Assembly: GCA_018260755.1 (NCBI GenBank)
Contig: JAGTWP010000038.1
Span: forward strand, 1 to 12,992
Direction: 5' to 3'
Origin: Candidatus Altarchaeum sp.
GTDB taxonomy: Archaea; Altiarchaeota; Altiarchaeia; Altiarchaeales; Altiarchaeaceae
Length of the DNA stretch: 12,992 nt
Shown here: piece after piece, positions 1 to 12,992 of the stretch
Layout of the letters: each line of letters starts with the position of its first letter
Position numbering within the stretch: position 1 is the stretch's first letter
Translations under genes and position numbers: made by a program
Notes under the pieces: generated by a model
Seen by the model: only the letters and a program-made list of their open reading frames with translations
What the model was told of the DNA's origin: nothing
The model's database searches: none

Positions 1-121
1 AAATTTATGAAATTTTTAAATAAGATTGAAATCAAAAGATTTCAGTATTTCAAAACTCTGGGTTTTGAAAATAATTACAAGAGCAAATATTACGAGGTAT
101 AAATCCAGTTAGCTAAACAAA
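1..121 (-). repeat. Hairpin-rich intergenic repeat, left copy
   Basis: Read on the minus strand, this begins 7 bases beyond the pckG stop with TTTGTTTAGCTAACTGGATT. It continues with two modules. Module A contains an inverted repeat at 48-70 (9-bp stem TTTCAAAAC/GTTTTGAAA, 5-base loop). Module B contains a 7-bp stem at 27-44 (TGAAATC/GATTTCA, loop of four). The same start sequence and both modules recur at 12675-12867 in inverted orientation, with the modules in the other order. The left border is cut by the window edge. It could be a dispersed non-coding repeat (MITE-like) or a shared 3'-end processing or termination element. Confidence 0.75.
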
Positions 122-128
122 AACCTTT

Positions 129-1940
129 TTATTTTATATGCTTGTTTCTTAGTCGTTCCCGCAAATCTTTTAATTCCTTTGTTAATTCCTTTGGCATCCT
201 GTCAAATTTACTGAAAAATTTCTCTACTTCATCCGTCTCTTTAAGCCATCCCTCTTTATCAATGCTGAACAATTCCTTTATGTCCTCTTTACTTATTTCT
301 ATCCCTTTGGTATTTATCGCATCTGCTGCTGGAACATAGCCGATAGGTGTTTCAATCGCTTCTTTTTCTTTGTTATTGTTAGAAATATCACATTGCTTTA
401 TAATCCATTCAATAACCCTTAAATTTTCACCGTATCCAGGCCATAAAAATTTTCCCTCCTTGTTTTTCCTGAACCAGTTAACGAAGAATATTTTCGGTGG
501 AAATTTCATCCGTTTTCCCATGTCTAACCAGTGGGTAAAATAATCTCCCATATTGTATCCGCAGAACGGAAGCATCGCCATAGGGTCATTTCTTACAACC
601 TTTCCAAGCCCTATTGCTGCTGCTGTTCCCTCTGATCTCAATGTTGCACCCATAAAGACCCCGTGCTGCCAGTTAAATGATTCGTAAACAAGAGGAACAA
701 CATTTTCCCTTCTTCCACCAAAAAGGATTGCTGAAATCGGCACCCCTCTTGGATTTGAAAATTCGGAAGAGACCGCGGGACACTGTGATATCGGTGTAGT
801 AAATCTGCTGTTCGGATGTGCTCCGGGTTCTTGTGATTCCTTTGTCCATAAATCTCCTTTCCAGTCAATTCCTTTATCCGGCGGGTTTTCCATCCCTTCC
901 CACCAGACAGTGTTATCCTCTTTTAAAAGAACATTTGTGAATATAGTATTCTTTTTAATTGTTAACATCGCATTCTTATTTCTTTTCATGTTTGTTCCAG
1001 AAGCAACGCCGAAGAATCCTGCTTCGGGATTAATTGCCCAGAGTCGCCCATCATCACCAATATACATCCATGCAATATCATCTCCGAGTACTCTTACTTT
1101 GTAACCCGGAAGTGACTCCGGAGGAATCAGCATACTGAGATTTGTCTTTCCGCACGCACTTGGGAATGCCCCTGCAACATAAAATGTCTTATTATCTGGT
1201 GTCTGAATCTCCATTAAAAGCATATGCTCTGCCATCCATCCCTCTTTTCTACCAAGATAACTTGCAATACGAAGGGCAAGACATTTTTTACCTGATAAAA
1301 CATTCCCACCGTAACAGGAATTTATGCTCCATATAGTATTATCCTCGGGAAAATGACAAATTCTTCGTTTTTCCAAACTGTTATTGCCTTTTGAGTGAAG
1401 ACAATTAGTAAATTTATCACTTCTAATCTCATCTGCTGTAATTTTTCCAATTCGTGTCATTATTCTCATATTTAAAACAACATAGATACTATCCGTAAGT
1501 TCTACTCCTATTTTGTTCATTTTTGAACCTGGAACACCCATCATGAACGGAATAACATACATTGTTCTTCCTTTCATTGAGTCCCTAAAATATCCGCTTA
1601 ATTCTTTATATGCATCTTCCGGTGCCATCCAGTTGTTTGTGGGACCTGCATCCTCTTTTTTTGTCGTGCAGATATAAGTCAAATGCTCGGTTCTTGCGAC
1701 ATCATTTATAGCACTCCTGTGTAATACGCATCCCGGAAATTTTTCCTGATTTAATTCAATTAATTCGCCGCTTTTAATTGCCTCACCGGTAAGAAATTTT
1801 TTTTCTTCTTCGGAACCATCACAGAAGTAAATTTTATCAGGATTACAGAGTTCTGCTGATTTATTTACAAATTCCAAGACATACTTGTTTTTAATATAAT
1901 TGTTAATATACTTGGTTGTAATTTTATTCATGTTTTCCAT
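129..1940 (-). CDS. pckG: GTP-dependent phosphoenolpyruvate carboxykinase
   Basis: Catalyses the reversible conversion of oxaloacetate plus GTP to phosphoenolpyruvate, CO2 and GDP in the cytosol, feeding gluconeogenesis. The protein has 603 residues, the usual length of the GTP-type family and unlike the shorter ATP-type enzyme. Visible motifs are RTMYVIPF near 125, CYGGN near 209, the P-loop GAFPSACGKTN at 257-267 with the reactive cysteine of the GTP class, the metal-binding VLGDDIAWM at 284-292, NPEAGFFGVASGTN near 304, and RFTTPISQCP further on. The start is the ATG at 1940. A TATA-like box 21-28 bases upstream and no Shine-Dalgarno suggest a leaderless mRNA; a second ATG lies three codons in. 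It is divergent from the RNA methyltransferase gene and followed by the left repeat. No damage is seen. Confidence 0.97.
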   Translation of the reverse strand: MENMNKITTKYINNYIKNKYVLEFVNKSAELCNPDKIYFCDGSEEEKKFLTGEAIKSGELIELNQEKFPGCVLHRSAINDVARTEHLTYICTTKKEDAGPTNNWMAPEDAYKELSGYFRDSMKGRTMYVIPFMMGVPGSKMNKIGVELTDSIYVVLNMRIMTRIGKITADEIRSDKFTNCLHSKGNNSLEKRRICHFPEDNTIWSINSCYGGNVLSGKKCLALRIASYLGRKEGWMAEHMLLMEIQTPDNKTFYVAGAFPSACGKTNLSMLIPPESLPGYKVRVLGDDIAWMYIGDDGRLWAINPEAGFFGVASGTNMKRNKNAMLTIKKNTIFTNVLLKEDNTVWWEGMENPPDKGIDWKGDLWTKESQEPGAHPNSRFTTPISQCPAVSSEFSNPRGVPISAILFGGRRENVVPLVYESFNWQHGVFMGATLRSEGTAAAIGLGKVVRNDPMAMLPFCGYNMGDYFTHWLDMGKRMKFPPKIFFVNWFRKNKEGKFLWPGYGENLRVIEWIIKQCDISNNNKEKEAIETPIGYVPAADAINTKGIEISKEDIKELFSIDKEGWLKETDEVEKFFSKFDRMPKELTKELKDLRERLRNKHIK

Positions 1941-5107: not shown

Positions 5108-5205
5108 TAAATTTTTTCTCTCTTTGCTTTCTGATAATTATTTTAAAATCCATAGCAGTATATTGTATGGGATTTTCAAAAAGCTTTCCACTATAGTGCT
5201 AAACT
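5108..5205 (-). repeat. Diverged direct repeat, copy 1 (upstream of beta-RFAP synthase)
   Basis: This segment and 5905-5990 share the order GGAAAGCTTTTTGAAAAT, a short variable stretch, TACAATATACT and an ATG followed by ATTTTAAA and AATTAT, all on the minus strand. By eye about 54 of 65 aligned bases match in the core. The unit looks like a promoter or leader plus the first codons of a small gene (here ATG at 5153). It lies just upstream of the beta-RFAP synthase start. Together the two copies bracket the broken HEPN/MNT pair. Confidence 0.7.
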
Positions 5206-5238
5206 TTAAGATAATATGAATGGCATAAAATCCCTTTT

Positions 5239-5818: not shown

Positions 5819-5938
5819 TTATAATTCTTTTATAATATTTAGAATATTTTGTAAATCTTCAAGTGCAAGTGAGGCATCTTTCTTTCGGGAAAAAAGAAAA
5901 TTTCTCTTTGTCCTTAATAATTACTTTAAAATTCATAA
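5819..5938 (-). pseudogene. Unrecognised small coding relic upstream of HEPN
   Basis: From the ATG at 5938 inside repeat copy 2, the minus strand reads MNFKVIIKDKEKFSFFPKE and stops after 25 codons. In another frame the sequence continues ASLALEDLQNILNIIKEL to a stop at 5819-5821. A strand-like beginning and a helix-like end separated by a frame change suggest the remains of one small protein of about 40 residues. I do not recognise it; a HicB-like antitoxin shape is only a guess. The first codons resemble those after repeat copy 1 (MDFKIII). Confidence 0.3.
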
Positions 5939-5990
5939 TAGTATATTGTAAGACATTTTCAAAAAGCTTTCCTCTATTGTGTTAGACATT
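5905..5990 (-). repeat. Diverged direct repeat, copy 2 (upstream of HEPN/MNT relic)
   Basis: Second copy of the unit at 5108-5205, same orientation, about 83 percent alike in the 65-base core by eye. It carries GGAAAGCTTTTTGAAAAT, TACAATATACT and an ATG at 5938. Its position at the upstream border of the HEPN/MNT relic, with copy 1 at the downstream border, suggests that the relic was inserted between, or duplicated together with, the leader sequence. Confidence 0.7.
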
Positions 5991-12667: not shown

Positions 12668-12674
12668 AATTGTA

Positions 12675-12867
12675 TTTGTTTAGCTAATTGGATTTTACTG
12701 AAAACTACAGGTTTTCAATCTTTAAAAATTTATGAAATTTTTAAATTACCTCGTCATATTTAATTTTGCAGTTATTTTCAAAACCCCGAGTTTTGAAAAT
12801 CTCCGAGCAACAGCGAGGTGATTTTCAAAACCCCGAGTTTTGTAAATCTCCGAGCAACAGCGAGGTG
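12675..12867 (+). repeat. Hairpin-rich intergenic repeat, right copy
   Basis: Begins 8 bases after the carbonic anhydrase stop with TTTGTTTAGCTAATTGGATT, the same start as the left copy. Module B follows first (hairpin 12699-12717, stem TGAAAAC/GTTTTCA). Then comes TACCTCGTCATATTT and module A (hairpin 12775-12799, 10-bp stem TTTTCAAAAC/GTTTTGAAAA, loop CCCGA). Module A is duplicated in tandem at 12774-12820 and 12821-12867. Relative to its upstream gene it has the same orientation as the left copy, so across the window the pair forms a large interrupted inverted repeat. Confidence 0.75.
12774..12867 (+). repeat. Tandem duplication, 2 x 47 bp
   Basis: Two adjacent 47-bp units starting ATTTTCAAAACCCCGAG and ending CGAGCAACAGCGAGGTG differ at one base (A in unit 1, T in unit 2, right of GTTTTG). 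The change breaks the hairpin stem slightly in unit 2. There is no spacer between units. Confidence 0.9.
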
Positions 12868-12992
12868 ATTTTTTTCACAATTTTCACACTTAATTTTTTA
12901 AGCAGATTAACAAATACTTTATTTTTAATCTAAATTTACAGAAGTAATTTAAACCCAACTTCCCATCATAAATTAACTTTTTCACGCTCAGT
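12868..12992. other. AT-rich tail with no feature recognised
   Basis: Low-complexity AT-rich sequence up to the window edge. I see no reading frame, RNA or repeat that I can support. Confidence 0.4.

Follow-up and report, generated by a model that had tools for sequence, protein, structure and literature searches.

Repeats at both ends of a Candidatus Altarchaeum contig as probable copies of an IS66-type MITE with hairpin cargo and an in-frame coding sibling

Two repeats lie at the ends of the window, a stretch of 12,992 nucleotides that makes up the whole of contig C72 in an archaeal draft assembly (G000, 1.32 Mb). Both are very probably copies of an IS66-type MITE, presumably served by a transposase acting in trans, which carries hairpin units as cargo and has the same ends as a sibling that encodes protein in frame within other genes. 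The left copy (positions 1 to 124, minus strand) starts 4 nt past the stop codon of pckG and is cut by the contig end; it aligns with 101-bp cores and with full copies of the element, and its terminal inverted repeat (TIR), GTTTTTGTTTAGCT at 111 to 124 on the minus strand, carries one mismatch to the consensus. The right copy is complete at 246 bp (12672 to 12917, plus strand), starts 4 nt past the stop codon of a carbonic anhydrase relic ORF and possesses both TIRs on the plus strand, GTATTTGTTTAGCT at 12672 to 12685 and AGATTAACAAATAC at 12904 to 12917, the latter with two mismatches to the consensus. A first-pass annotation of this DNA had described hairpin repeats that close both ends of the window and favoured a dispersed element acting at mRNA 3' ends; its sequence observations are correct and its preferred interpretation is mostly wrong. 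The repeats do occupy both ends, but this placement reflects the breaking of assemblies at repeats and not biology, as 23 of the 56 clusters of repeats in G000 are located no more than 250 bp from a contig end (1.7 expected).

Ends, target duplications and distribution of the element

The MITE has a core of 101 bp with 14-bp TIRs, starting with GTATTTGTTTAGCT and ending with AGCTAAACAAATAC. The TIR pattern GTATTTGTTTAGNT finds 48 matches in the genome, compared to 10 for a reversed control. Target duplications were analyzed in 32 TIR-bounded copies from four congeneric genomes, which were picked by their ends and not by their flanking repeats and include one coding copy with a hairpin insert (G003:C44). 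An exact 8-bp duplication flanks 19 of these copies (0.75 for shuffled flanks), and at least 7 of the 8 flank bases match in 24 of them (1.6 if flanks are shuffled among copies). Exact direct repeats of other lengths are confined to a single case of 9 bp, with none at 5-7 or 10-12 bp. At neither window copy is a target duplication seen, as the flanks of the right copy match at 4 of 8 positions and the left copy runs off the contig. In the three other congeneric genomes (G001, G002 and G003), whose pckG genes are 85-89% identical, no element occupies the site after pckG, and the G001 sequence agrees with that of G000 through AAATAAAAAG, which marks the exact start of the element. The pckG gene itself (window 129-1940, minus strand) encodes a GTP-type PEP carboxykinase. 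In a listing that may omit near relatives, almost all of its relatives from beyond the genus are bacterial, at no more than 63% identity, which suggests acquisition by horizontal transfer.

Both window flanks begin with the same word, which the first-pass annotation had recognized as differing at one base: from 124 on the minus strand and from 12672 on the plus strand, the sequence reads TTTGTTTAGCTAA[C/T]TGGATTT. The reported distance of 7-8 nt between stop codon and shared word is likewise right, and each element's own start lies 4 nt past the stop. A search for further copies matched the two flanks at at least 58 and at least 73 places in the same genome (E <= 0.001); these counts are lower bounds, as the reading covered the sequence around matches and the best 40 of 127 and the best 40 of 233 first-look candidates were scored for the two flanks. 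In total, at least 56 repeat clusters are present in G000, with element sizes of about 100-660 bp, and each of the other three congeneric genomes contains 15-23 matches. Outside the genus, the 57 genomes searched (61 in total) yielded two marginal matches, one in G026 and one in G050. When Rfam covariance models were run against the window, a tRNA alone reached the gathering score and the MITE matched none of them. The assignment as a MITE is based on TIRs, a target duplication of fixed length, short size without a transposase gene, high copy number and sites that are polymorphic for occupancy. The mobile non-coding repeat named as an alternative in the first-pass annotation is backed by TIRs, 8-bp duplications and empty sites.

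Two further observations concern copies outside the window. A copy of 659 bp in G000:C53 (L220, 1559-2217) has an exact 8-bp repeat, and most of its length is taken up by about six hairpin pairs in tandem. In G003, a second MITE (L202, L203, L204, L206, L208 and L209) displays like ends around another body (CACCACAGAGGCACAGAG...), with exact 8-bp repeats in all.

Hairpin cargo and genomic placement

Alignment of the copies shows that the longer forms of the MITE consist of the 101-bp core with inserts at two fixed positions. Position 1, after GGATTT, accommodates a T1 hairpin and an AT-rich hairpin, and position 2, within GTTATTTT, accommodates T2 and T3 hairpins in one or more 47-nt units. 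The modular shape of the repeats results from the insertion of units at these two positions. In the right window copy, the position-1 insert (12696 to 12745, plus strand) comprises the T1 hairpin TACTGAAAACTACAGGTTTTCAATCTT and the AT-rich hairpin TAAAAATTTATGAAATTTTTA, while the position-2 insert (12775 to 12869, plus strand) is a direct repeat of two 47-nt units, each with a T2 hairpin (CAAAACCCCGAGTTTTG) and a T3 hairpin (TCCGAGCAACAGCGAGGTGA); both inserts are absent from the 101-bp cores. The left copy contains one T2 unit (ATTTTCAAAACCCAGAGTTTTGAAA, 48 to 72) and one T1 unit (TACTGAAATCTTTTGATTTCAATCTT, 22 to 47), both on the minus strand. These MITE inserts correspond to the modules A (T2) and B (T1) that had been read in both flanks, module A as a CAAAACCC-x-GAGTTTTG hairpin preceded by TACCTCGT..ATATTT and module B as a TGAAA..TTTCAATCTT hairpin, the left flank having the order A-B and the right flank B-A-A. 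Reading of the letters confirmed these modules, their order and the exchange at the sixth stem position of module B, which is T-A in the left and A-T in the right copy. Elsewhere in the window, a decayed T3-like hairpin unit (TTTTGTAAATCTTCAAGTGCAAGTGAGG) is found in an intergenic stretch at 5847-5874, and a 74-nt direct repeat of 84% identity (5134-5207 and 5917-5990, 783 bp apart) lies in a long stretch that has no clear gene.

Covariation was assessed with distinct hairpin interiors from the four congeneric genomes. For T1, 26 of 32 interiors retain the two outermost variable pairs (shuffled 11.1, maximum 18); the corresponding counts are 29 of 41 for T2 (shuffled 9.7, maximum 18) and 14 of 17 for T3 (shuffled 5.5, maximum 14). 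The excess over the shuffles indicates that the stems are conserved through compensation, and the covariation first noted in two copies extends to this larger set, where it belongs to the cargo hairpin units and not to an RNA spanning the whole element. Compensatory pairing may be kept by selection at the RNA or DNA level or by palindrome-correcting repair. As the aligned copies display, the 101-bp core has gained varying numbers of these short units at its two insertion positions. That hairpins with covarying stems build up at two set places inside a mobile element is unusual.

Covarying stems would also be expected of a dispersed RNA element, a terminator or stabiliser, that acts at mRNA 3' ends just past stop codons. 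This reading is in line with the start of both window copies 4 nt past a stop codon and with RNA folding, in which the full-length copy of the window outdoes every shuffled sequence (z -5.9 and -6.9 for the two strands), but the 101-bp core alone hardly folds (z -1.45) and the copies bear transposon ends and target duplications. Genomic placement, analyzed for the 56 clusters of G000 using a home-made gene caller, argues against it as well: 54 of 56 clusters are intergenic, and their occurrence in convergent, tandem and divergent gaps (4/20/4 clusters) is proportional to the intergenic bases in each type (4381/18554/4639), with distances to stop codons scattered from 0 to over 1000 bp. A weak bias exists at contig edges, where the flanking gene has its 3' end towards the repeat in 19 of 26 cases, and could be explained by selection against promoter insertions. 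Targeting of mRNA 3' ends by the MITE is not supported, and an RNA element of this kind is very improbable. Insertions of the MITE survive mainly between genes, including but not preferentially just past stop codons.

The hairpin units could alternatively be REP/BIME-type palindromes that are spread by a RAYT (Y1 transposase), with the TIRs being incidental. Palindromic units are indeed arrayed outside the MITE as well, at locus L039 and in G001 downstream of pckG. Such an origin is nevertheless extremely improbable, given that precise duplications of 8 bp adjoin the ends of MITE copies and that Y1_Tnp (PF01797) has no match in G000-G003, a search for which five control genomes were positive.

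Candidate transposase families

Members of the IS66 family generate 8-bp direct repeats and have ends beginning with GTA (PMC11946415; PMC3281130). Since the MITE exhibits both features, PF03050 was searched. In archaea outside the MITE's genus, the 14-bp ends were found next to IS66 genes: a 452-aa IS66 transposase (PF03050) in G016 is bracketed on both sides by ends that are identical at 14 of 14 positions, spanning 1650 bp from end to end, and in G071 the ends occur on both sides of an IS66 transposase gene with one mismatch each. The terminal word additionally adjoins an IS66 transposase on one side at two loci in G029 and in G014. An exact 8-bp flanking repeat is absent from the G016 copy, and the identity between MITE and IS66 termini extends over 14 bp, below the 20-30 bp that are usual for IS66 terminal repeats (PMC11946415). 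The four congeneric genomes, which are 65-87% complete drafts, contain no intact IS66 transposase, with fragments alone in G001 and G002.

Assignment to IS66 is based on ends common to IS66 elements of other archaea and on 8-bp direct repeats. Since no intact IS66 gene was found within the genus, we infer mobilisation of the MITE in trans, by an IS66-type DDE transposase that would recognize the 14-bp ends and make an 8-bp staggered cut at insertion, giving rise to the observed 8-bp duplication. The same lack of an intact gene in the four drafts is compatible with movement by another family that duplicates 8 bp, in which case the ends of IS66 elements in other archaea would have converged on the same sequence. 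There is only a slim chance of such convergence, considering that the same 14-bp word abuts IS66 transposase genes at several loci in different archaea and that the one IS630 ORF located between MITE ends, in G001:C3, is a passenger.

This IS630 ORF was considered as the autonomous partner and rejected. It belongs to an IS630-family element (L186, about 1014-2205) that is inserted at TA inside a MITE copy and, owing to its own GTGTCTTGACAACTT ends and its TA target, represents a nested passenger; IS630 ends and a TA duplication are not found for the MITE itself. A TIR pair 4.5 kb apart in G001:C95 encloses ordinary genes and was taken as a chance pair. The ends of an IS66 pseudogene in G001:C134 and of fragments in G001:C10 and G002:C45 do not match those of the MITE.

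The coding sibling and relation to known mobile elements

TIR pairs of the MITE type also enclose a segment of ~86 residues (YLFSWDDVPG...KLNIY) that lies in frame within long ORFs, and its DNA ends are the MITE terminal repeat (GTATTTGTTTAGCTGG...AGCTAAACATATAC). Matches number 17 in G000, 16 in G001, 10 in G002 and 18 in G003; beyond the genus, G026 contains 25 and G008, G016 and G023 one each. At least 6 of 8 flank positions match in 11 of 26 copies (0.6 expected). The hosts, named from their sequences, with RadC and the helicase also supported by Pfam, include CTP synthase, LonB (two copies), DNA ligase (several), RadC, PRPP synthetase and Cas3, and the loci include L268 (G000:C45, 1500-1773), L261, L276, L280 and L272. 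The CTP synthase of G000 carries the insert between AAACAAAA and AAACAAAT, whereas the uninterrupted gene of G003 contains a single AAACAAAT, i.e. one copy of the 8-bp target. Insert and 8-bp duplication together have a length divisible by three, which keeps the frame and lets this protein-coding sibling of the MITE survive inside genes, as seen at the CTP synthase site.

AlphaFold predicts a confident fold for the segment (mean pLDDT 94.8, pTM 0.83), in which each of the two TIR-coded ends forms a strand. Fold searches returned nothing convincing (best VIA-align Z 4.8, tied between frataxin-like and other folds; best Foldseek E 0.02), no PDB sequence matches, no Pfam model scores above its cut-off and no curated Pfam/NCBIfam family covers the segment. 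Copies that appear to be nested in themselves, split at ~residue 30, in frame and more than once in one ORF, occur at G000:C66:8242-8802, G003:C60:54838-55497 and G002:C237:13385-13933. At L205 (G003:C44:38368-39251), a RadC gene contains a coding segment that contains a second coding segment, which in turn contains a hairpin unit; the ORF is not interrupted, and an exact 8-bp repeat is present at the inner coding copy.

The same ends link intergenic hairpin repeats to a mobile segment that codes in frame, for which CTP synthase provides a clean pair of one occupied and one uninterrupted site. It is fairly probable that one IS66-type system spreads two cargoes on the same 14-bp ends, namely the intergenic hairpin element and an 86-residue, self-folding segment that enters essential enzymes in frame and whose end strands are TIR-coded. 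If true, the latter would be a transposable protein domain tuned for tolerance inside other proteins. Searches of open-licence papers turned up no previous account of an element in archaea that inserts in frame and has IS66 ends.

In comparison to known systems, the MITE is ordinary in kind, and its unusual features are the covarying hairpin cargo and the ends common to the in-frame segment. With single-ORF IS66 members and their derived MITEs, it shares 8-bp direct repeats, GTA ends and the 14-bp word of IS66 genes, but it is non-autonomous, about 100-660 bp long and found in a genus in which no intact transposase was detected; its 14-bp ends begin with GTAT (in a G003 subfamily, one of them has GTAA), whereas those of IS66 begin with GTAAGCG and extend over 20-30 bp. 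Prokaryotic MITEs include Correia and RUP, and archaeal ones are described in Sulfolobus and haloarchaea (reviewed in PMC10969869). Like these, the present element is short, mostly intergenic and equipped with TIRs and target duplications, with mobilisation in trans, which here is probable; it differs in that covarying hairpin units, variable in number, occupy two fixed sites inside it. REP/BIME sequences similarly form arrays of short imperfect palindromes between genes, but here a RAYT is absent from the four genomes and the units sit inside a TIR-bounded element. Rickettsia palindromic elements (RPE), which are about 150 bp long, insert in frame into unrelated genes, including essential ones (PMC10969869), as does the coding sibling. 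The archaeal segment is distinguished by its 86 residues with a confident predicted fold, its 8-bp duplication and its ends of IS66-transposase type. RPE prompted the question of how mobile insertions in frame can be tolerated, and the archaeal set, with 10-18 copies per genome in four congeners, open frames, a confident predicted fold and a candidate transposase family, makes this question directly testable.
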